Below are positions 1,119-11,924 of a DNA stretch of 13,379 nt, piece after piece. Origin of the DNA: Lysobacterales bacterium UBA5700 (GTDB lineage Bacteria > Pseudomonadota > Gammaproteobacteria > Xanthomonadales > Xanthomonadaceae); NCBI GenBank assembly GCA_002420085.1, contig DIHI01000012.1, forward strand, positions 1-13,379, in the 5' to 3' direction. Positions within the stretch are counted from its first letter, which is position 1. Each line of letters starts with the position of its first letter. The position numbers were made by a program, and so were the translations under genes. A model generated the notes under the pieces. That model was given only the letters and a program-made list of their open reading frames with translations, was not told the DNA's origin and made no database searches.

Positions 1119-4007
1119 ATGGATCAGGATCAGGACGACGGGGAGCGTCGGATACGGATGGAACGGGCAACGGAAGTGGCGGAGTGGAATCCGGGAACGG
1201 ACGGAACCGATGGAGCGATCGACAGCCTGTTGAAGCTGTCGGTGCCGGAGGGGCTGATTGGTGATGGTGCGCCGATTGCGCAGCGCATCGGTCGATCGTT
1301 GCTGGCGAGGGTGTCTGGCGACGTCGATCAGGCGCTCGGTCGGGTGCTGGATGCCGATGAGGCGGCGGCGTTCCGGGCGGCGGCGCTGTCCTATGCGCGG
1401 GAGCGCCTGGACCGCTGGCTGGTCAAGACTGCCGTGTTCGAGATCAATCTCGCGCGTGAGGCGGGTCGTCTGCATGGCGACAGCAGCGAGGCACGGCTGC
1501 GGGCCTTCGTTGCCCTGCTCGACGATGTCGGGTTCCAGCGCGAGTTGATGCTGCGTAATCGGGTGCTGTTCGAGCGCGTCGAAGAGCACTTCCGGCTGCT
1601 GGTGGGTTTTCTGACCGATGCGGCAGCGCGACTGGGCCGCAGACGCCCCCGCCTGCATGCCAGCTTCGGCGATCTGGGTCGGCTGGTCGAGGTCGAGATC
1701 GGCAAGGGCGATTCCCACTTCGGCGCCAGGCAGGTGCTGATCCTCCGCTTCACGGACGGTGCGCTGGTGTTCAAGCCGCGTTCGCTGGCGGTCGATCGCT
1801 TGTACGCGGAGCTGATCGAGCGAGCCAATCGACACCTCAGGTTCGCACTGAGGGCACCGGTCTCACTCGACGACGATGACGCCGGCTGGCAGGAACTGGT
1901 GGCGTCCGGGATCGCCGATGGTGCGGTCGAGGCCGAGCGCTTCTACTACTCGATCGGTGCTCATCTGGCCTTGATGCATCTGGTCAACGCAACCGATGTC
2001 CATTTCGAGAACATCCTGACCACGCCGGCCGGCGAGCCGATCTTCTTCGACATGGAGACCGCTTTCGCCAACATGGTCGCGCCGGATCCGGCGCGCATAC
2101 GGCGGGCCGGCTTCGATGCGGTGATGCAGCAGTTGCAGGCCCTGTCGCGCAGTGTGCTGATGGCCGGCATCCTGCCTTCCTACTCGAACCAGCAGTCGGG
2201 CCTGAGTGCGCTGACCGAGGCCGATGGCCGTGAGACTCTGACCAGTGTCGATCACGTGGTGGACAACGGTACCGATCGGGTTCGCCTGGAGCGCAAGCCG
2301 GCACGGTTCGAGATTCGCAGCAGTTTGCCACGCATCAAGGGCGTGCCGACCCGACCAGCCGAGTTCGTCGAGACCATCCTGGCCGGGTTCGACGATGCCT
2401 ATCGTTGGATACGGACGCAACGCGACGACCTGCTCGCCTGGCTCGACGGCCATGGCCGTGTGCAGGTGCGGGCGGTTCTGAGAAACACCTCGATCTACGG
2501 GATGTTCCTGTCGGAAAGCACCCATCCACGTTTCGGGGCCGATCCCGACGGTCTGCGCCGGTTGCTCGGCAAGCTGGCGATCGGTGCCGAGTTCCTGCCG
2601 CCGCTGGCCAATGTCCTCGATGAGGAGGTCGAGCAGCTTCTGCGCATGGACGTTCCGGCGTTCCGCTGTCGCCTCGATCAGCCGACCCTCGACGGGTATC
2701 GCACGTCCGACCTCCCGTTCTATGGCCGTTCGGCCCTTCAGAACCTGCACGACAACGCCGCCCATCTGTCGGACTCGGACCAGCGCTTCCAGCAGATGCT
2801 GATTCGCCGCATGCTCGGGGTATCCAGCTATCCGCGCGGCCCCTGGTGCGGGCGGCCGGACGACGCCGCGCCGGCATCGATCGCGGCGATCGTGGCGTTT
2901 CTGCGCGCGGCAGCCAGCGAGTCGTCGCGCGACGGCAGCGTGTCCTGGCTCAACATCAATGTGCCCGAGGAGGGCGGCGAGATTCAACCGGTCACGCCGA
3001 CGCTCTACGGGGGTCTGGCGGGAATCTTCCATTTTCTCTCGGCAGTCGAGCGCGAGACTTCCCTGCTGCAGGGTTCCGATCTGGTCGACCGGTTGCGCCG
3101 GATGGTCATGGTCGATGCCGAGGAAATGGCTCGCGAGCAGCGCAATCCCGGATTCTTCAATGGCTTGGCCGGGTTGCTGTTCGCGCTCCAGCACGATGCC
3201 CTGGCGCGCAATGACACCGTCGGGCTGGCGGCAGTGGTCAGGATGGTCGATCGCCTGGAGCCGGCGGCGTTTGCCGGCAAGACCGATATCGTCGATGGCC
3301 TGGCCGGCACGGTGCTGTTTCTGTGCGGTCTGCATGAGGCGAGTCCGGTGCCGGGTGTCCGGGCGAGGCTGGTGGCGATGGCCGAGGCGCTCGATCTGGC
3401 CTGTCGGGATGGTTTCGCCTGGAGCGAGGCGCATCAGCAGTTTCTCGGGGGCTTCGCGCATGGCGCGTCGGGAATCGCCCACGCACTGTTGTCTGCCGGC
3501 CATGTGCTCGGCAGCGAGGCGCTGGTCGCGCGTGGTCGTGCGGCGATCGTGTTCGAGGACGCGCGGTTCGAGCCACGGCTGGAGAATTGGCCCGACCTGC
3601 GGGTCGGTACGGCGGCGATCTACAACCGCACCTGGTGCAATGGTCGGCCCGGTTATCTGATCCCACGCGCGATCTGGTCGGATGTGATGACACCGGATGA
3701 TCGTCGGATCAGCGATCTGGCCTTGCGCCGCCAGTTGGAGGGGGTCGATTACGACGATGACAGCCTCTGCCACGGCAGTGCCGGCGGCCTGGATGTGGCG
3801 ATCACGCTCCGGCGCTGGTTGCCGGATCGGATGGCCGAGTTCGATCTGGGCCGGGCGCTGACCGCGCTGTCGTCGCGCGTGAACCTGCGATCCGGCAGCA
3901 TCGATCGGGACGCTCCCGGCCTGATGTCGGGGGCTGCCGGCTTCGGCTATGCCCTGCTCAGGGCCAGAAATCCGGCGCTGCCCAGCGTTCTCAGCATCTA
4001 TCGGTAG
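1119..4007 (+). CDS. lanM: Class II lanthipeptide synthetase (LanM family)
   Basis: This is a bifunctional enzyme that phosphorylates and dehydrates Ser/Thr of a precursor peptide, then cyclises Cys onto the dehydro-residues to form (methyl)lanthionine rings. Numbered from ATG 1119 (962 residues), the N-terminal DUF4135 kinase-like dehydratase has the VFKPRSL lysine K219, NATDVHFENIL with D293, H295 and N298, and FFDMET with D311 and E313; these correspond to the catalytic residues of CylM-type enzymes. The C-terminal LanC-like cyclase begins near LYGGLAG (about 629). It has GFAHG with H781, the zinc ligand C840 in TWCNG, and zinc ligands C884-H885 in LCHG. Both active sites therefore look complete. 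Length is near the usual 900-1,050. The start is uncertain: an in-frame GTG at 1086 and an ATG at 1158 (GGGGAG 12 bases upstream) are alternatives. The exporter gene starts 6 bases after its stop, and the likely substrate is encoded at 7107-7292. Confidence 0.93.
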   Translation: MDQDQDDGERRIRMERATEVAEWNPGTDGTDGAIDSLLKLSVPEGLIGDGAPIAQRIGRSLLARVSGDVDQALGRVLDADEAAAFRAAALSYARERLDRWLVKTAVFEINLAREAGRLHGDSSEARLRAFVALLDDVGFQRELMLRNRVLFERVEEHFRLLVGFLTDAAARLGRRRPRLHASFGDLGRLVEVEIGKGDSHFGARQVLILRFTDGALVFKPRSLAVDRLYAELIERANRHLRFALRAPVSLDDDDAGWQELVASGIADGAVEAERFYYSIGAHLALMHLVNATDVHFENILTTPAGEPIFFDMETAFANMVAPDPARIRRAGFDAVMQQLQALSRSVLMAGILPSYSNQQSGLSALTEADGRETLTSVDHVVDNGTDRVRLERKPARFEIRSSLPRIKGVPTRPAEFVETILAGFDDAYRWIRTQRDDLLAWLDGHGRVQVRAVLRNTSIYGMFLSESTHPRFGADPDGLRRLLGKLAIGAEFLPPLANVLDEEVEQLLRMDVPAFRCRLDQPTLDGYRTSDLPFYGRSALQNLHDNAAHLSDSDQRFQQMLIRRMLGVSSYPRGPWCGRPDDAAPASIAAIVAFLRAAASESSRDGSVSWLNINVPEEGGEIQPVTPTLYGGLAGIFHFLSAVERETSLLQGSDLVDRLRRMVMVDAEEMAREQRNPGFFNGLAGLLFALQHDALARNDTVGLAAVVRMVDRLEPAAFAGKTDIVDGLAGTVLFLCGLHEASPVPGVRARLVAMAEALDLACRDGFAWSEAHQQFLGGFAHGASGIAHALLSAGHVLGSEALVARGRAAIVFEDARFEPRLENWPDLRVGTAAIYNRTWCNGRPGYLIPRAIWSDVMTPDDRRISDLALRRQLEGVDYDDDSLCHGSAGGLDVAITLRRWLPDRMAEFDLGRALTALSSRVNLRSGSIDRDAPGLMSGAAGFGYALLRARNPALPSVLSIYR

Positions 4008-4013
4008 GACGCC

Positions 4014-6113
4014 GTGCGCATCGTTTATCAGACCCGCGAAAACGACTGTGCCCTGGCCTGCCTGGCGATGATGCTGGGTCATCACGGCCGGACGGTGTCG
4101 CTGTACGACCTGAAGATGCGTCATCCGATCGGTGCCGCCGGGGTATCGGTGTACGACCTCAAGGTGATCGCCGAGGCCAATCGGTTATCGACTCGGGTGC
4201 TGCGGTTCAATGGCAGTGCGGATGATCTGGGTGGCCTGCCGACGCCCTTCGTCGCGCACTGGGGCGGCTGTCATTTCGTGATTGTGGAGGCGATCGAGGA
4301 CGGCCACATGCGGCTGCTCGATCCCAAGGAGGGGCCACGCAGGGTGAGCTTCGCCGAGGCGCTGGCGCTGTGGACCGGGGTCGGCGTGTTCCTGTGGCCG
4401 GGCGAGGGTTTCAGGACCGACGATCGGGCCTCGCCGCTGGCCCGCTGGGCGCCGGAAGCGATCCGGCACTGGCGCTTGTTCGCGGGGCTGATGGCGGTTT
4501 CGGTCCTGCTGCTGGGGGTCGCCTACGGGGTTCCTCTGGCGATCTCGCGGGTGGTCGCCAATTTCATCGAGTTCGGAACCCTGCCGTATTCGATCGAAGG
4601 CATGCTGGCGCTCGCGGCTGGCTTCCTGGCCTCGTACTTCCTGTTCAACTGGAGCAAGCAGCGTCTGCTGCTGGCGGTGCGGGTCCGGTTGGAGCGACAG
4701 CTCAGCGAGACCTTCGTCGGTGGGTTGTTCCGTTTACCGGTGCTGTTCTTCACCCGCATGCCGTTCGGTGATCTGCTCGATCGGCTCAGTTCGGTCGGGG
4801 CGATTCGGGAATTCGTCAGCACCCGGCTGGCCGCATCGCTGATCGACCTGTTCCTGCTGCTGGCGCTGGCGGTGTTGATCTTCATCACCGACCACAAGCT
4901 GGCGATCGTCTACCTGTCGTGTGCCTTGGCGGTCGGCCAGCTCATCTACCTCCAATGGCCGACGCTGCGCGATCGCTATCGCGATGAGGTGCTGTCGTAT
5001 ACCAGCACGTTCGATGGTTTCTCCGATGCTCTGCTGGGCATCCAGGAGATCAAGGCGAGCCGGCTGGAGGCCGTCTTCCATGCCCGCTGGTTCGCGCGTT
5101 TCACGGAGTACCTGGGTGCCGTCCATGCGCGCGGTCTGTTGTCGGCGCGGTTGGAGGCATTGCTGGCGATGCTGACCGGTGGCGTCCCGGTGGTGGTGCT
5201 GCTGACCGCGCTGTGGCTGGTGCAGAACGCGCAACTGGCACCTGGCGATGCGCTGCTGGCCTACCTGCTGACCCAGTTCTCGATGGCCTCACTGGTCGGC
5301 CTGCTTGGCACCGGCCTGGCCATGCAATACCTGGTGATCCACACCGATCGGGTCGATGGCATCACCGAGTTCATCGCGGAGAATGGCCGCGAGCCGGCCA
5401 GGGCGGAAACGCCGCGGCAGGTCGAGCAGATCGTGTTCGAGGACTGCGGCTTTCGCTACAGCCCGAGCGGTCCGGATGTGCTGGCCGGGATCGATCTGCG
5501 CATTGATGTCTCACGGCCTGGTTTCCATGTCGTGGTCGGTCCGTCCGGGGTCGGCAAGAGCACCCTTCTGAAGTTGCTCACCCACATGGTCAGGCCGACT
5601 TCGGGGCGCGTGCTGTACGCAGCCGCTGGCCGTGATCTGGCGGATCACGAGGTCGAGCATCCGACGGCGGTGATCCAGGATTCGGCGATGTTCCGGGGCA
5701 CGATCCTGGAGAACATCACGATGTTCGCCGAGCAGTTCGACCTGGTGAAGGTCGCCGATGCCTGTCGCAAGGCGCGCATCCACGATGAAATCCTGGCGAT
5801 GCCGATGGGTTTCGGCAGTGCCGTCGAGCGCGGCGGCCAGAATCTGTCCGGCGGCCAGAGGCAGCGGATCGCACTGGCTCGCGCGCTGTACAAGGAGCCG
5901 AAGGTGCTGATCCTCGACGAGGCCACCAGCCATCTCGACATGGAGGCCGAGCGGCACATCATCCAGCACCTGCGGGCCTTGCCGTGTGCCGTGATCGTTG
6001 CCACCCACCGCACCGGTTGGATCGATCCCCGCGACACCCTGATCCAGATTCGCGACGGCGGTGTCCGTCTGCAACGTCCGGCCGTGGAAAACCTGGAGAG
6101 CCAGCATGCCTGA
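4014..6113 (+). CDS. lanT: C39 peptidase-containing ABC exporter (LanT/PCAT type)
   Basis: This inner-membrane transporter removes double-glycine leaders and exports the modified peptide. The N-terminal C39 cysteine protease is complete: oxyanion Gln6, catalytic Cys12 in NDCALACLAMML, His87 in GCHFVIV and Asp103 in LLDPKEG. A transmembrane domain spans about 150-440. The C-terminal ATPase has Walker A GPSGVGKST (509-517, K515), a Q-loop in VIQDSAMF, the LSGGQRQR signature (611-618), Walker B LILDEATS with D635-E636, and the H-loop His665 in ATHR. The 699-residue length is typical. The GTG start is 6 bases after the LanM stop, with AGGA at 4006-4009 overlapping that stop, and it places Gln6 and Cys12 correctly. 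Tight spacing implies co-transcription and translational coupling with lanM. The matching substrate is the GG-leader peptide at 7107-7292. Confidence 0.95.
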   Translation: MRIVYQTRENDCALACLAMMLGHHGRTVSLYDLKMRHPIGAAGVSVYDLKVIAEANRLSTRVLRFNGSADDLGGLPTPFVAHWGGCHFVIVEAIEDGHMRLLDPKEGPRRVSFAEALALWTGVGVFLWPGEGFRTDDRASPLARWAPEAIRHWRLFAGLMAVSVLLLGVAYGVPLAISRVVANFIEFGTLPYSIEGMLALAAGFLASYFLFNWSKQRLLLAVRVRLERQLSETFVGGLFRLPVLFFTRMPFGDLLDRLSSVGAIREFVSTRLAASLIDLFLLLALAVLIFITDHKLAIVYLSCALAVGQLIYLQWPTLRDRYRDEVLSYTSTFDGFSDALLGIQEIKASRLEAVFHARWFARFTEYLGAVHARGLLSARLEALLAMLTGGVPVVVLLTALWLVQNAQLAPGDALLAYLLTQFSMASLVGLLGTGLAMQYLVIHTDRVDGITEFIAENGREPARAETPRQVEQIVFEDCGFRYSPSGPDVLAGIDLRIDVSRPGFHVVVGPSGVGKSTLLKLLTHMVRPTSGRVLYAAAGRDLADHEVEHPTAVIQDSAMFRGTILENITMFAEQFDLVKVADACRKARIHDEILAMPMGFGSAVERGGQNLSGGQRQRIALARALYKEPKVLILDEATSHLDMEAERHIIQHLRALPCAVIVATHRTGWIDPRDTLIQIRDGGVRLQRPAVENLESQHA

Positions 6114-6204: not shown

Positions 6205-6843
6205 ATGCGATCAGGGCGCCTGATTTCGACAGTGATGGTGGCCGGCCTGGTGGTGGCTGGTTTGGCCTACGTTTTTCTGTCCGGCGGACGGACGGTCTCC
6301 GGGTTCGATGTGGCGAGCCTGCCCGGTCACGGCAGCGCGGATGCGCCGGTCACCGTGGTCGTGGTCGAGGATTTTCGCTGTGCGAGTTGCCAGACCTTCC
6401 ACACCGATGTGGTGGCCGAACTGCTTCGTGGCCACGTTGCTGCTGGCCGGGTCCAGCTTCGCTTTGCCGTGCTGCCGGCGGTACGCAAGGACTCGCTCGA
6501 TCTGGCCACGCTGGCCTTGCTCTATTCGCGCTACCACGCGCTGCCGTTCGCGACGGTGTCGGCTCGGCTGTTCGAGGCCGATTCACCCCGAATCGATCTG
6601 GCGCGGGCCGATCTGGTGCTGGCCGAGCAGTTCGGGCCGATCGATCCGGGCCGGCGCCCAGCACTGGAGGTGGCGGCGCGAACCCATTTGAAGGAGGGCG
6701 GGCGGTATCTGGTCGGTCGCGATGTCGATCGGGTGCCCAGTGTTCTGGTCGGTGAGGTGCTGCTGTTTGCGCCGGGCCGCGACATCGTTTTCAGGGAGAT
6801 CGAACGGGCGCTGGCACAGGCGACCGGCGATGCCGAGCAGTAG
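6205..6843 (+). CDS. Membrane-anchored DsbA-like thiol:disulfide oxidoreductase
   Basis: This 212-residue protein has an N-terminal hydrophobic helix (about 7-25, no obvious signal-peptidase or lipobox site) and should be tethered to the inner membrane facing the periplasm. The thioredoxin-like part opens with GSADAPVTVVVVEDFRC, the usual start of DsbA/DSBA-like thioredoxin domains. The active site is C59-A-S-C62, and the cis-proline loop is VDRVPSVLVGE with V177-P178. The insertion between them (about 85-165) fits the DsbA helical domain. It lies between the exporter and precursor genes, which suggests it acts on the exported Cys-rich peptide or keeps exposed cysteines in a defined redox state; that role is inferred. 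It lacks a strong ribosome binding site and starts 3 bases after a small ORF. A general disulfide catalyst unrelated to the peptide remains possible. Confidence 0.85.
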   Translation: MRSGRLISTVMVAGLVVAGLAYVFLSGGRTVSGFDVASLPGHGSADAPVTVVVVEDFRCASCQTFHTDVVAELLRGHVAAGRVQLRFAVLPAVRKDSLDLATLALLYSRYHALPFATVSARLFEADSPRIDLARADLVLAEQFGPIDPGRRPALEVAARTHLKEGGRYLVGRDVDRVPSVLVGEVLLFAPGRDIVFREIERALAQATGDAEQ

Positions 6844-7106
6844 CGGGGCGCTTTCGGGCGCTGCGTGAGCATCGGGCAGGGACGCTCGATGGGTGGTTCG
6901 GGTGTGCGCGCCCGAATCCATCCGTGCGGAGCCGGCGAGCCGCCGGAACCGCCAGGCCGGGGGGCGTCGGAGGACGCCCGCCCGGATGCCGCCAGGTGCG
7001 GTTGCCGATCCGGAGCCATGGGTTTCGGGGCGGTCATCGGGCCGGGTGGTCGTTGTGTCAACCAACCATGCGTCATTCACAATCCAATCCAATGGGAGAA
7101 ACAGTC
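6844..7106 (+). other. Intergenic region upstream of the lanthipeptide precursor
   Basis: This 263-base gap has no convincing gene. It contains a perfect 7-bp hairpin (GGGCGTC 6962-6968, GACGCCC 6973-6979, loop GGAG) without a T-tract. Its final 50 bases are much more AT-rich than the rest and include TTGTGT (7053-7058) and CACAAT (7078-7083), a weak promoter-like pair with a 19-base spacer. A separate promoter for the precursor here is plausible but not demonstrated. The precursor's ribosome binding site GGGAG (7094-7098) lies 8 bases before its ATG. Confidence 0.4.
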
Positions 7107-7292
7107 ATGAACAATCAGCACATGGAAAACGCTCTGAAGGCCGTTCCGGCGATGGAAGAGCTGTCCGACGAGAGCCTGCGCGCCATGATGGGCGGCTGGA
7201 GCGGCGGCTACTGCACCATCACCTGCGAGTGTGGCTGCACGCTGTGTACCTCGACGATCTACAGTTGCACCCGTGAGGTCATCGCGCTGTGA
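7107..7292 (+). CDS. lanA: Class II lanthipeptide precursor with double-glycine leader
   Basis: This 61-residue peptide is the likely substrate of the LanM and C39-ABC proteins. The leader is residues 1-30: acidic, with the EELSDESL (17-24) recognition-type stretch of class II leaders, and ending MMGG, so cleavage is expected after Gly30. The core (31-61) opens WSGGYCTITCECGC, continues TLCTSTIYSC and ends TREVIAL. It has six Cys (36, 40, 42, 44, 47, 54) and nine Ser/Thr (32, 37, 39, 45, 48, 49, 50, 53, 55). Residues 36-42, CTITCEC, match the CTxTxEC lipid II-binding motif of mersacidin-group lantibiotics. The ATG is supported by GGGAG 8 bases upstream and by the complete leader. A strong hairpin follows the stop by 7 bases. 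Ring topology cannot be read from the sequence, and some Cys may end in disulfides given the neighbouring DsbA-like gene. Confidence 0.9.
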   Translation: MNNQHMENALKAVPAMEELSDESLRAMMGGWSGGYCTITCECGCTLCTSTIYSCTREVIAL

Positions 7293-7299
7293 TGCACCG

Positions 7300-7327
7300 G
7301 ACTGCCCCGGCTCCGGCCGGGGCAGTC
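7300..7327 (+). terminator. Strong hairpin after the precursor gene (terminator or attenuator)
   Basis: Bases 7300-7311 pair perfectly with 7316-7327, a 12-bp stem with a 4-base TCCG loop beginning 7 bases after the precursor stop. The following bases are only mildly T-containing (tcctgatg), so it is not a canonical intrinsic terminator. It may partly terminate, or it may protect the precursor mRNA 3' end, giving more precursor than downstream pump message, as seen in many lantibiotic operons. Confidence 0.6.
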
Positions 7328-7455
7328 TCCTGATGCTGGCCTGACGCCGGCGTGTCGCCGGTCTGGCGGCGGTGTGTGGCGGCTGCGCTGCGTGCCGTGC
7401 GGCAACCGGTCGGCCGGACCGCACACGATTGCCGGGTCTGGCTGGATTGTCGCTC

Positions 7456-7509: not shown

Positions 7510-8850
7510 ATGTTTCGTCTAGTTCGTTCCCGACGCATGCTGATCCTGGCCGGGCTGGTCCTTGCCCTGCTGCTGGTGCTGGCGTTCCGGGCGCTGTTCG
7601 GTTCGGCCGGGGCCGGGGCGGGTGACCGCCAGCCGTTCCGTTATCCGGTCGATGCGGTCACCATGCGCCGGGCTGAGGCACAGCCGGAACTGGAACTGGC
7701 CGGTCGGGTCACTGCCGGGCGCAAGGTCGCGGTGGTGGCGCCGTTCGATGGCCGGGTCGAGTCGGTCGCGGTGTCGGTTGGTCGTGAGGTGGCGGCCGGC
7801 GATGTCCTGCTGCGGCTCGACCGGCGCTTGATCGAGTTGTCGCTGAACGAGGCACGTCGCACGCTCGACAATGCCGAACTCGAAATCGAGAAATCCGACC
7901 GCCGCCGGGCGTACCTCAAGGAGCGGCTGGTCATCGAGGAGGATGCCCTGGCCCGGGCCAGCCGAGTCAAGGAACGGGCGATGCAACTGTTCGAGCGCAA
8001 GCTGATCACGGTCATCGATTTCGAGAACTACGTGGCGGCGGTGGACAGCGCGCGCTTGCAGATTCTCGAACTGAATCGGGAACTGGGCCAGTTGCAACTG
8101 GATCGTCGCAGTCTGGTCAATGATCGCGATACCTTGCGTGCTCAGGTCGCCGATCTGGGTCGCAATCTCGACGCGGCCGAACTGGTCGCCACCGTCGATG
8201 GCGTGGTGTTGGATGTCCAGGCCACACCGGGCGGCCATGTCGCCTCGGGGGTCGAACTGGTTTCGGTGGCGCCACGGGAGGTCATGGAGGTCGAGATTCC
8301 CTGGCCGAGCGCGGCCGGTAATGGCGACCGGGTTTCCGCCTGGGCGCTGTTTCCCGAGGGGGCGCTGGCGGTCGAGATCGCCGAGGTCGGTTCGGTGGTG
8401 GTCGCCGGTCAGGCCAGTCCGACGGCTACGCTGATCGGACGCGGGCCATTGGCCCGGCGGGCGGTGGTCGGCGGTTTCGTGCCGATCCGACTGCGCCTGC
8501 CAGCGGTTGCCGATGCCTTCCTGGTGCCTTCGCGTGCCCTGTATCCGGGCGATCGGGTGTTTCGCATCCAGGGCGAGCCGGCCAGTCTGGTCGGTGTGCC
8601 GGTTGCCGTATCCGGTCGTGTCTATGATCAGGCCGGCGATCCGCACTGGATCGTTCGGGCCGAAGCGTTGGACGACGGTGACCAGGTGCTGGCCAGCCGT
8701 CTGGCTGCTGCCAGCGATGGCCTGCCGGTCGAAGTCGCCAATCTGATCGAGGTCGAGACGGCGCGGCTGACGGTCGAGCCGACGGCGGCAGCGGTCGCGC
8801 TCGACGCTGCGTCGGGTGGCTCCGGGGCGACGGATCCGCAATGGCGCTGA
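7510..8850 (+). CDS. Efflux RND/HlyD-type periplasmic adaptor subunit
   Basis: This membrane-fusion protein would link the inner-membrane pump to an outer-membrane channel. Numbered from ATG 7510 (446 residues), a basic start is followed by a transmembrane anchor (about 10-30). The first lipoyl half-motif is VTAGRKVAVVAPFDGRVESV, with GREVAAGDVLLRLD (about 66-105). A long charged alpha-helical hairpin spans about 107-223. The second lipoyl half is VATVDGVVLDVQATPGGHVASG (about 226-247), and the beta-barrel and membrane-proximal domains make up the rest. The frame is open upstream to a GTG at 7372, but that extension is Cys/Arg-rich and unlike an adaptor, and the ATG places the anchor at the N-terminus; no strong ribosome binding site supports either. 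The gene overlaps the RND permease gene by 10 bases, so the two are coupled. Its cargo is unknown; adjacency suggests the lanthipeptide. Confidence 0.88.
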   Translation: MFRLVRSRRMLILAGLVLALLLVLAFRALFGSAGAGAGDRQPFRYPVDAVTMRRAEAQPELELAGRVTAGRKVAVVAPFDGRVESVAVSVGREVAAGDVLLRLDRRLIELSLNEARRTLDNAELEIEKSDRRRAYLKERLVIEEDALARASRVKERAMQLFERKLITVIDFENYVAAVDSARLQILELNRELGQLQLDRRSLVNDRDTLRAQVADLGRNLDAAELVATVDGVVLDVQATPGGHVASGVELVSVAPREVMEVEIPWPSAAGNGDRVSAWALFPEGALAVEIAEVGSVVVAGQASPTATLIGRGPLARRAVVGGFVPIRLRLPAVADAFLVPSRALYPGDRVFRIQGEPASLVGVPVAVSGRVYDQAGDPHWIVRAEALDDGDQVLASRLAAASDGLPVEVANLIEVETARLTVEPTAAAVALDAASGGSGATDPQWR

Positions 8851-11800
8851 ACGCGGTTCTCGGGTATTTCCAGCGACATGTGGTTGCCGCCAATGTCCTG
8901 GCGCTGCTGGCGGTGTCACTCGGGCTGTTCTTTGCGCCGCGGATCAAGAACACGCTGACCCCGGACATCCATTTCCCGGCCATCGAGTTGAATCTGAGCT
9001 GGCCTGGCGCCGGGGCCGAGGCGGTGATGAGCCAACTGGTCGAGCCGCTCGAACAACGGCTGCTCCAGATGCCCGAGGTCAAGAGCGTCGTCGCGCATGC
9101 CGAGCGTGGCCAGGGCAGTCTGCTGGTCTCGCTGGCGGACGAGGCGGCGGTCGATCGGATGGAACGCTTCGCGGTGGCCAGCGCCGAGGAGATCCGGCGT
9201 CATGCGCCGGGCAGTGAGCCGGCCGTGGCGACCCGGATGCGTTTCGAGGAGCGGGCGTTCCGGGTCGGTCTGAATGGCCCGTCGCGCGAGGCGCTGTATG
9301 AAGAGGCGATGCAGTTGCGAGGTCGCTTCCTGCGGCAGGGGGTGCCGCTGGTCGAGATCGAAGGCTGGACCACGCCCGACCTGGAGATCGCGATTCCGGC
9401 TGCCCGCCTGAATGCGCTGGGCGTGTCACTGGAGGCGATTGCCCGGCAGATCCGGCCGCAGTTGGATGTCAGTGTCGCCGGCAATGTTCGTCGGGAAAGC
9501 GACGATCTGGTGGTCAGCAGCCGTGGCACCCGACTCGACGAGCGCGCCCTGGCCGATCTGGAAATCGTCGATGCCAGTGGCGTCGCCATGCGCCTCGGTG
9601 TGCTCGCCGAGATCGGTTGGCGCAGCGAGGATGCCCGGCTGGCTCGGGTCAACGGTCGCGACGGGCTGGTGCTGAGCCTGATGCGTTCGATCGAGGTCGA
9701 TACCATCGAGGTGTCGCGGCGTGCGCGTGAAGCGCTTGCCGAGCACGTCCGGCGCAATCCGGCATCGACTGCAACCGTGATCGAGGATGTCGCGATCACG
9801 GTACTGGCCAATCGCAGCATGCTGATCGAGAACGCGCTGTTCGGACTGCTGCTGGTGTTCGTCTGCATGTGGCTGGTGCTGGGTGCGCGGGCGGCATTCT
9901 GGGCCGCTGCCGGCATTCCGATCGTATTGGCATTGACCGCCCTGGCGATGCTGTTCACCGGACAATCGGTCAATCTGTTCACGGTTGCGGCCTTCATCAT
10001 GGTGATGGGCGTGATCGTCGATGATTCGATCATCCTCAGTGAGGAGGCGGCATCGCTGGCGCGCACCGCTGGCCTGGGTGAGGACACCAGTCTGGCGGCG
10101 GCCCAGCGCATGTTCGCGCCGATCATGGCGGCCGGGCTGACCACGGTCGCGGCCTTTGCCCCGCTGCTCTGGCTGCCGGGTTTCTACGGCGCGATGATCG
10201 CGCCGATCGCGATGGTCGTGGTGGCGGCGATTCTCGCCTCGCTGTTCGAGTGTTTCGCGATCCTGCCGGCCCATTTGCGCGGATCCGGGTCGGCTGCCGC
10301 TGAGCCGTTCGACCGTCCGCACCTGCGGCGTATCGGCGATCGCTGGCTGCGTCGCCTGAGCGTGGCCAAGGTGGTGCCGGCGATGCGTGCCAGCCTGCGG
10401 CATCGACGCCGGACCGTGCTGACTGCGGTCGCGGCCTTCGTGCTGTCGCTGCTGGCCATGGTCGCCCTGTTCGAGGGCGAGGGGCCGGCGGTCGATAACG
10501 ACACGTTGCGGGCCTTCGTGTTCCTGGAGCCGGGTACGCCAGCCGATGAGCGCGAGCGGATCGCCGACACGTTCGAGGCATCGCTCCGGCAGGCGGCCGA
10601 GGGGCTTGCCGCGTTCGACGACATCGTCAGTGCCTGGACCCTGGTCGAACGCGATTCCTCCGGCAATCCCTGGTTCGAGGTGGTGGTGGCGTTGACACCG
10701 AGCACCGAGCGGGCGATCACCAGTGCCGAATTGCTGGAAGCCTGGGGTCGGCACGTGCAGCCCAACTCCTGGGTGCGTCGGTTCGGCATGGAGGTCGATC
10801 GTGACAAGCCGACCACCGCGATCAGTTGGCGGCTGGCGATCGGTTCCGATATCGAACAGGCGCGGGCGGCGGTCGAGGAGTTGCGCGGCCGCCTGCTGGC
10901 GCTGGAGGAAGTGATCCGGGTCGAGGACGATTTCAGTTCGGGCGCGCGGGCCGTCGAATTCACCCTGACCGCTCAGGGCCGAGCCCTCGGGCTGGACGAG
11001 CGCAGTCTCGCCGAGCAGTTGCGCGCCGGCCTCGAAGGCGCCCAGGTTGGACGGGTCGCTCACATCGGCGGTGAAGCCGAGGTGTTCGTCCGGTTGCCGC
11101 AGGGTGAGCGTGAGCGCGAAGATCGGATCGAGCAGTTCCCGATCGTGCTGCCCGAGGGCGGTTCGGTACCACTGTGGAGTGTGGCGCGCCTGGACGAGCG
11201 CGCCGGTGCCGCCCGCCTGGGCCGGATGGATGGCCAGCCACAGATCCAGGTGACCGCCCATCTGGCACCGGCGTTCATGGCCCAGCGGGCCGCGATCAAA
11301 CGCACGGTCGATCGCGAAATCCTGCCTGGCATCAAGAGCCGCTATGACTTCAAGACCAGCCGCTCGCCGCTCGAACAGGAGCAGCACGCCTTGCTGACGG
11401 CATTGGCGGGTGCCTTCTTCGTGGGCGTGATTGCCATCTACTTCGTGCTGGTCTGGAATCTGCGGTCGTTCTGGTGGCCGCTGCTGATCGTCGCGACGAT
11501 CCCACTCGGGATTTCCGGGGCGGTGTTCGCACACCTGCTGCTGGGCATCGCGCCGACCGTGATGAGCCTGTTCGGGATCATCGGCATGGCCGGGGTGGTG
11601 GTCAACGACACCATCGTCTATCTGGCCCGCTATCGCGAGTTGCGTGGTCGGCTTGGCTACCGTTCGGCGGCATTGCGCGCCGGTCGCGATCGCTTCCGGG
11701 CAATCGCACTGACCACCCTGACGACCGTGATCGGGGCCATGCCGCTGCTGATCGATGGTTCGCCGAACGCTTACGTGTTCAAACCCGTGCTGGTGAGCTT

Positions 11801-11924
11801 CTGTGGCGGCATTCTGGCCGGTTCGGTGCTGTTGCTGCTGGTGTTTCCTTCCGCCCTGACCCTGCTGGAAGAATACCGCGACCGCCTGCGCGCGCGTTTC
11901 GTGCCGGTGCTCGGTGGTGGCTGA
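8841..11924 (+). CDS. RND-superfamily efflux permease (AcrB/HAE type)
   Basis: This 1,027-residue inner-membrane proton-driven transporter has the normal RND length and internal duplication. It has TM1 (about 14-33), a first large periplasmic loop beginning with the VEPLEQRLLQMPEVKSV porter pattern, TM2-TM6 (about 327-485), TM7 (about 524-548), a second periplasmic loop and TM8-TM12 (about 852 to the end). The TM4 proton-relay aspartates D394-D395 are present in MVMGVIVDDSIILSEEA. In TM10 the usual drug-RND Lys appears replaced by Asn922 (GVVVNDTIVYLARY), as in divergent RND clades. The gene overlaps the adaptor gene (ATGGCGCTGA shared), so they form one pump. No outer-membrane factor is encoded nearby, and a TolC-like protein elsewhere would be needed. 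Its position after the precursor suggests self-protection or export of the lanthipeptide, which is inference; general efflux is the alternative. Confidence 0.92.
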   Translation: MALNAVLGYFQRHVVAANVLALLAVSLGLFFAPRIKNTLTPDIHFPAIELNLSWPGAGAEAVMSQLVEPLEQRLLQMPEVKSVVAHAERGQGSLLVSLADEAAVDRMERFAVASAEEIRRHAPGSEPAVATRMRFEERAFRVGLNGPSREALYEEAMQLRGRFLRQGVPLVEIEGWTTPDLEIAIPAARLNALGVSLEAIARQIRPQLDVSVAGNVRRESDDLVVSSRGTRLDERALADLEIVDASGVAMRLGVLAEIGWRSEDARLARVNGRDGLVLSLMRSIEVDTIEVSRRAREALAEHVRRNPASTATVIEDVAITVLANRSMLIENALFGLLLVFVCMWLVLGARAAFWAAAGIPIVLALTALAMLFTGQSVNLFTVAAFIMVMGVIVDDSIILSEEAASLARTAGLGEDTSLAAAQRMFAPIMAAGLTTVAAFAPLLWLPGFYGAMIAPIAMVVVAAILASLFECFAILPAHLRGSGSAAAEPFDRPHLRRIGDRWLRRLSVAKVVPAMRASLRHRRRTVLTAVAAFVLSLLAMVALFEGEGPAVDNDTLRAFVFLEPGTPADERERIADTFEASLRQAAEGLAAFDDIVSAWTLVERDSSGNPWFEVVVALTPSTERAITSAELLEAWGRHVQPNSWVRRFGMEVDRDKPTTAISWRLAIGSDIEQARAAVEELRGRLLALEEVIRVEDDFSSGARAVEFTLTAQGRALGLDERSLAEQLRAGLEGAQVGRVAHIGGEAEVFVRLPQGEREREDRIEQFPIVLPEGGSVPLWSVARLDERAGAARLGRMDGQPQIQVTAHLAPAFMAQRAAIKRTVDREILPGIKSRYDFKTSRSPLEQEQHALLTALAGAFFVGVIAIYFVLVWNLRSFWWPLLIVATIPLGISGAVFAHLLLGIAPTVMSLFGIIGMAGVVVNDTIVYLARYRELRGRLGYRSAALRAGRDRFRAIALTTLTTVIGAMPLLIDGSPNAYVFKPVLVSFCGGILAGSVLLLLVFPSALTLLEEYRDRLRARFVPVLGGG

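Follow-up and report, generated by a model that had tools for sequence, protein, structure and literature searches.

A conserved mersacidin-type motif in an apparently new form of class II lanthipeptide from a member of the Xanthomonadaceae

The stretch of DNA analyzed here (13,379 nucleotides from Lysobacterales bacterium UBA5700, hereafter the window) carries the gene of a class II lanthipeptide precursor whose core contains a mersacidin-type CTxTxEC motif. The form of this motif that is constant across both subfamilies of its relatives, [TS]xTx[ED]CxC, occurs in all 29 complete precursors that were collected by similarity, the window's included (alignment A4). The feature is real, the motif is common to the collected family, and the window peptide appears to be a new form of class II lanthipeptide of the mersacidin/lacticin 481 type. 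The genes, the motif and its conservation, a coupling between two of its residues, and the set of genes around it are direct observations. A lipid II-binding function is plausible, and we lean, by a modest degree, towards a mersacidin-like class II lanthipeptide that binds lipid II; the rings, disulfides, target, and pump role of that proposal are all inferred.

The precursor gene (LanA; 7107–7292, forward strand, as are all genes of the cluster) encodes 61 residues, a double-Gly leader and a 31-residue core, and its translation reads MNNQHMENALKAVPAMEELSDESLRAMMGG / WSGGYCTITCECGCTLCTSTIYSCTREVIAL. It matches PF04604 (E 8e-7; 29.3 bits against a cut-off of 21.7), with positions 1–40 of the 50-position model aligned to residues 1–44, that is, to the leader and the motif, and another 29 precursors, of which one is incomplete, are related to it. 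Shine-Dalgarno-like GGGAGA lies 5' of its ATG (7094–7099, +). The leader (residues 1–30; 7107–7196, +) ends in Gly-Gly, and from the invariance of GG29-30 in the 30 rows of alignment A4, together with the C39 domain of LanT, we infer that a C39 protease cuts after Gly30, so that the predicted core spans residues 31–61 (7197–7289, +). The sequence-only reading had given C-T-I-T-C-E-C as core residues 36–42 within 7206–7235. Its letters agree with the translation, but the numbering is that of the precursor (residues 36–42, core residues 6–12), and the motif itself, C36-T37-I38-T39-C40-E41-C42, fills exactly 7212–7232 (+), the broader span having taken in G34, Y35, and G43. A 13-bp hairpin (7299–7328, +) follows the precursor stop, the folding energy of 7285–7345 being -34.6 kcal/mol (z -4.1 versus shuffles). 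It is placed between the precursor and the pump genes, carries no T run, and is possibly a terminator or a stabilizer of the transcript end.

A degenerate DNA pattern for C-T-I-T-C-E-C occurred once in the organism's 3.44-Mb assembly, and the reversed control pattern did not occur in that genome. When the 31-residue core was shuffled 400,000 times, CTxTxEC arose in 0.22% of the shuffles, [TS]xTx[ED]CxC in 0.34%, and CTxTCEC in 0.03%. Conservation speaks more strongly against chance: all 29 complete precursors keep the motif, and on this ground we reject a chance origin, with the caveat that the relatives were collected with motif-containing profiles.

The earlier assignment of the gene to the lanthipeptides is borne out, with class II supported both by the PF04604 score and by the adjoining LanM gene (1125–4007, +; an alternative upstream GTG lies at 1086). 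LanM combines DUF4135 and LanC-like domains and scores 511 bits against a TIGR03897 cut-off of 304; the precursor that it adjoins is rich in Ser, Thr, and Cys, and TxTxEC in the core places that precursor with the mersacidin type. The motifs KPRS, DVHFEN, and DMET (kinase-like) and WCNG and LCHG (cyclase and zinc site) are present in LanM, residues to which we presume these respective roles belong. LicM2, of lichenicidin, was the better of two LanM matches among solved structures and aligned over nearly the full length. On the same strand follow LanT (4014–6113, +), which domain scans identify as a C39 peptidase-ABC exporter; a thioredoxin-fold protein (6205–6843, +; PF13462, E 5.5e-11, residues 43–117 only) with an N-terminal hydrophobic stretch and a CASC active site, presumably periplasmic; the precursor; an HlyD/MFP-type periplasmic adaptor (7510–8850, +; its start is uncertain, with an upstream GTG possible at 7372); an RND pump of the AcrB family whose gene overlaps that of the adaptor (8841–11924, +), both from domain scans; and then a dnaX-like frame, so named from its sequence. 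Upstream of the cluster, a HypB-like hydrogenase nickel-insertion protein above the TIGR00073 cut-off is encoded on the opposite strand (42–776, -).

Domain scans of three clusters, the window's among them, showed thioredoxin-fold and adaptor-plus-pump genes in each. The other two, L015 (Lysobacter-type) and L018 (label f12), carry on one strand a precursor, LanT, an adaptor, a MacB-like ABC pump, a thioredoxin-fold protein, and LanM. The thioredoxin-fold proteins of the three are weak homologues (24–29% over the aligned part), and in BLAST the window adaptor matched that of L018 (27%) but not that of L015. The window's LanM is 31% identical to that of L015 and 27% to that of L018, both of which belong to subfamily II described below, and its LanT 32% and 30%, respectively, so the motif has outlived a large divergence.

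A precursor search, which the sequence-only reading had advised, is what yielded the 29 further relatives; the strict CTxTxEC form is not constant among them. The first protein search returned 2 further proteins, the next brought the number to 14 in all, and the last gave 32 rows, of which we kept 28, with E values no higher than 6e-9; P0015 and P0016, added from loci, completed the 30 rows of alignment A4. Motif counts and the tree used the 29 complete rows, the window's among them, since P0030 ends inside its core. P0031–P0034 (E 0.96 and worse) were excluded, and five weak relatives (E 0.03–0.09) entered a motif scan only. Because the collecting profiles contain the motif, the sample is biased, and members without it could be missed. 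Pfam at E 0.01 gave no match for P0010, P0015, or P0017, the three scanned, and precomputed PF04604 assignments were present only for P0001 and P0006.

With profile A2, related precursors were found in four of 395 same-family genomes besides the organism's own (genus label g16) and in one of 398 same-order genomes besides its own. Among 369 same-class genomes (profile A3), the own genome aside, only a false match appeared (L020 in G789, E 3e-4), which crosses a stop in a frame without the motif and was rejected; none was found besides the own genome in 378 same-phylum genomes (profile A4, E 1e-4). About 15–17 candidates were scored per genome in these samples, and rare weak relatives may be missed. 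Searches of genome contigs with LanM and with alignment A1, plus one scan of viral contigs, confirmed no locus; a plasmid protein search with P0010 gave no match; and against solved structures profile A4 matched nothing beyond stretches that resemble bacteriocin leaders (best E 0.15). The core of P0015, from one g16 genome, equals that of P0021, listed under Lysobacter sp. CA199, and on these grounds the host was read as Xanthomonadaceae-like.

Two subfamilies can be told apart. Subfamily I (17 members, including the window's) follows [CPF][TS]xTC[ED]C[GS]CxxCTSxxYxCT, while subfamily II (12 complete members: Lysobacter-type, f12, and metagenome proteins) follows CGxxCSxTGEC[GT]C and then NGx[ST]xC. 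The position marked x in CTxTxEC is Cys40 in the window (7224–7226, +). All 17 members of subfamily I have Cys there, and all 12 complete members of subfamily II have Gly. The earlier remark that this variable position is itself a Cys thus holds beyond the window for a whole subfamily, and, being invariant there, Cys40 is a defining trait and no oddity. The CTxTxEC match, which likewise holds for the window, does not hold as the conserved form, since subfamily I has C, P, or F first (three of the 17 lack the Cys that opens the motif), T or S at 37, and E or D at 41. Residue 41 is acidic in 29 of 29: Glu in the window and eight other members of subfamily I, Asp in the remaining 8 of 17, and Glu in 12 of 12 of subfamily II. 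Subfamily I also keeps Ser or Thr at 37, 39, 48, and 49, and its second block past the motif, [G/S]-C-x-x-C-T-S-x-x-Y-x-C-T (7233–7271, +; alignments A2 and A4), matches the motif in strength of conservation.

The reach of this block opens a different account of the conservation, because another target could explain a conserved stretch that extends so far past the motif. The peptide would then be a class II lanthipeptide that acts on membranes or on a receptor and does not bind lipid II, its TxTx[ED]C rings an easy scaffold for LanM and its CTSxxYxCT block the acting part. There are precedents for such action: the cyanobacterial class II lanthipeptide nostolysamide C is described as membrane-active without lipid II and without a LiaRS response (PMC13060382, whose accessible text does not state that it carries the motif), and Dyella and Scytonema are reported to make class II lanthipeptides with selective activity on Klebsiella, which hints at other targets (PMC9576775). 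However, subfamily II retains [TS]xTxEC without the CTSxxYxCT block, which marks the motif as the wider constraint, and the acidic residue at 41 in every complete precursor also argues against a reading without lipid II. We regard this account as a real, though clearly minority, possibility.

Within the motif, positions 37 and 41 vary together in subfamily I: Thr37 goes with Glu41 in nine members and Ser37 with Asp41 in eight, with no mixed pair among the 17 (Fisher's p 4e-5, descent being ignored). The coupling is not universal, as all 12 complete members of subfamily II have Ser-Glu. With columns 37 and 41 left out of the tree building, each position changed on the best tree at least four times within subfamily I; with 4 of 26 inner branches starred, however, the independent supported 37/41 pairs number two, which is too few for significance, and the coupling is only suggestive. 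The same longest-contig value is listed for P0013 (Thr-Glu) and P0020 (Ser-Asp), 1066 bases, and for P0005 (Thr-Glu) and P0007 and P0019 (Ser-Asp), 376495 bases. On these equal values, Thr-Glu and Ser-Asp precursors probably share contigs, and both states would then occur in one cluster. Such neighbors might act as a pair, in the manner of a two-peptide lantibiotic, with the window peptide as one half or as a streamlined single form. We think this unlikely: equal longest-contig values are the whole basis for the shared contigs, and the window's own genome yielded a single precursor of the family (this genome has a completeness of 92.7%, and the start of the window is also the end of a contig).

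The number and placement of Cys residues suggest that thioethers are not the only bonds in the family. Four residues before Cys36, subfamily I has Cys in 12 members and Ser in two (the window, as Ser32 at 7200–7202, +, and P0008), and both Cys36 and its partner are missing in three; the two are therefore present or absent jointly in 17 of 17. This suggests that Cys36 and the residue at -4 form one small ring, which would be a disulfide in most members and a lanthionine in the window. In the 12 members with CGxxC, neither Cys has a Ser or Thr ahead of it in the core; this leaves no conventional thioether to an upstream residue and makes a disulfide the simplest choice, while the window's Ser32 could form a lanthionine of the same span as its relatives' Cys-Cys disulfide. 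Subfamily I members contain seven Cys (12 members), six (two), or five (three). If T37-C42, T39-C44 (or C47), S49 (or T48)-C54, and, in the two Ser members, S32-C36 are assumed, the leftover Cys are even in number in 17 of 17, which would leave Cys40 to pair with C47 or C44. Moreover, Cys outnumber Ser plus Thr in 14 of the 29 complete cores, so some Cys in those 14 are not in thioethers; the window's own core has six Cys against nine Ser and Thr. A thioredoxin-fold protein in all three clusters fits a need for disulfides of the kind proposed.

The same wealth of Cys, the thioredoxin-fold neighbor, and a scan of seven window proteins that showed neither LanFEG nor LanI could also be taken to mean that the product is a signal or metal-binding peptide with no antibiotic function, its Cys binding metal or staying reduced. 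A LanM with the expected motifs, the Ser/Thr positions kept in subfamily I, and pump genes adjoining the precursor all speak against this, and we consider it very improbable.

For the lipid II reading, which we favor, the following course may be envisaged. LanM would dehydrate and cyclize the core, and LanT would cut after Gly30 and deliver the peptide to the periplasm. Two rings would make up a mersacidin-like pocket: a T37-C42 methyllanthionine ring with acidic residue 41, and another that joins T39 to C44 or C47. A C44-type partner for the second ring is that of mersacidin, and a C47-type partner that of actagardine. The small Ser32-Cys36 ring would cap the N-terminus, as a Cys-Cys disulfide would in most relatives, S49 or T48 would close on C54, and Cys40 would form a disulfide with C47 or C44, aided by the cluster's thioredoxin-fold protein. 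In competitors, most simply Gram-positive ones, the pocket would bind lipid II by its pyrophosphate at the outer side of the cytoplasmic membrane, and the adaptor-RND pump would move the peptide out of the periplasm, thereby protecting the producer.

Published work bears on this proposal from several sides. TxTxEC is given as the lipid II motif of mersacidin (PMC7268733), and CTxTxEC is used for the alpha peptides of two-peptide systems (PMC9431498). Replacing Glu17 of mersacidin by Ala is reported to abolish or markedly reduce activity; in a simulation of lichenicidin alpha, however, Glu26 made no pyrophosphate contact, and the role of the Glu is disputed (both PMC9863751). Nukacin ISK-1 is described as binding lipid II through ring A, Abu9-Ala14 (PMC6156582), and since Asp13 lies within that ring, Asp in place of Glu appears compatible with lipid II binding. 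Within the family, points that weigh against the proposal are the Asp of eight subfamily I members, the absence of the first motif Cys in three, the limits of the 37/41 coupling, and the weak likeness of the thioredoxin-fold proteins and adaptors between clusters.

The sequence-only reading had placed the gene in an outer-membrane host. LptD in the genome supports this (289 bits against a cut-off of 22.4; two of 14 control genomes, those of E. coli and Caulobacter, also gave a score), and an outer membrane is therefore expected. It had also seen a puzzle of target access and self-protection, which weighs less given Gram-positive targets and the adaptor-RND genes. Access is no paradox, because lipid II of Gram-positive competitors can be reached without passage of an outer membrane. 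Delivery by LanT, as predicted, would place the peptide in the producer's periplasm, where it would face the producer's own lipid II, and the adaptor-RND pump is a candidate for self-protection. We judged it unlikely that the pump belongs to the dnaX neighborhood: any match at E 1e-50 was found in 3 of 23 same-family genomes, at 24–28% identity and none of them close, which makes an association with the cluster the likelier one. Over the 40 genomes searched, and leaving the own copy aside, pump matches at E 1e-50 had 24–29% identity. Adaptor-RND in the window and adaptor plus MacB-like ABC pump in L015 and L018 presumably share a role, either in carrying peptide through the outer membrane or in keeping the periplasm clear of it.

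CTxTxEC-type motifs are known mainly from Gram-positive producers. If lipid II is bound, the family would show the motif at work in outer-membrane bacteria, with another route of export and of self-protection. Its members are natural experiments on Glu versus Asp in the binding ring, on a possible swap of the N-terminal bond, and on Cys versus Gly at x, and with such variants one can test directly how much change the motif tolerates and what the conserved acid, whose role is disputed, contributes. The fullest picture would be a Gram-negative lipid II-binding family with a small ring that is a disulfide in most members and a lanthionine in the window (a Cys-to-Ser bond swap), with coupled Thr-Glu and Ser-Asp rings made together as complementary peptides, and with adaptor-RND or adaptor-MacB self-protection in place of LanFEG. 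Taken whole, we hold this to be improbable.

No description of the family was found in literature on Lysobacter and proteobacterial class II lanthipeptides, the lipid II motif, or disulfides with thioredoxin, a search whose scope excluded supplements and most subscription papers. Searches on the letters TCECGC, CTSWIY, and CTITCEC returned no paper, and TCDCGC returned, by title, mostly hepatitis E virus work. Several uncharacterized families appear to carry lipid II motifs according to PMC7268733, and the window's family may be among them. For Lysobacter, 27 class II precursors have been counted, six of them not DUF6229 (PMC11451712); clusters like L015 may be among those precursors.

Compared with known systems, the window family has relatives in several directions. 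The Xanthomonadaceae are, as we assume, of the same order as the Rhodanobacteraceae. The rhodanocins and other DUF6229 lanthipeptides are likewise class II and come from Rhodanobacteraceae and Lysobacter (PMC9576775, PMC11451712); however, the window precursor has no DUF6229 match at E 0.1, and the rhodanocin ring pattern is called unique in PMC9576775, the accessible portion of which does not mention a lipid II motif. Two-peptide alpha peptides (lichenicidin, vagococcin T) share CTxTxEC (PMC9431498), and LicM2 is the best structural match to LanM, whereas the window has no known beta peptide, a Cys-rich tail, and a Gram-negative host. Likeness to the lacticin 481/nukacin group (PF04604) lies in the precursor's score for that model, in the TxTx[ED]C motif, and in Asp13 of nukacin ring A, and the window peptide is presumably richer in Cys than members of that group. 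The mersacidin/actagardine group is alike in its T-x-T-x-E-C core motif, class II LanM, and double-Gly leader, and in mersacidin a Cys stands two residues past the motif Cys, as in the window peptide. In the mersacidin group, an upstream Ser or Thr serves as lanthionine partner for the motif's first Cys; that partner for Cys36 would be Ser32 in the window and Ser in P0008, and the 12 CGxxC members have none within the core. In contrast to this group, the window has adaptor-RND pump genes and no LanFEG among the proteins scanned, and its family has an outer-membrane host, Cys at x throughout subfamily I, an Asp variant tied to Ser37, a Cys or Ser placed four residues ahead of the motif, and a longer C-terminal block.
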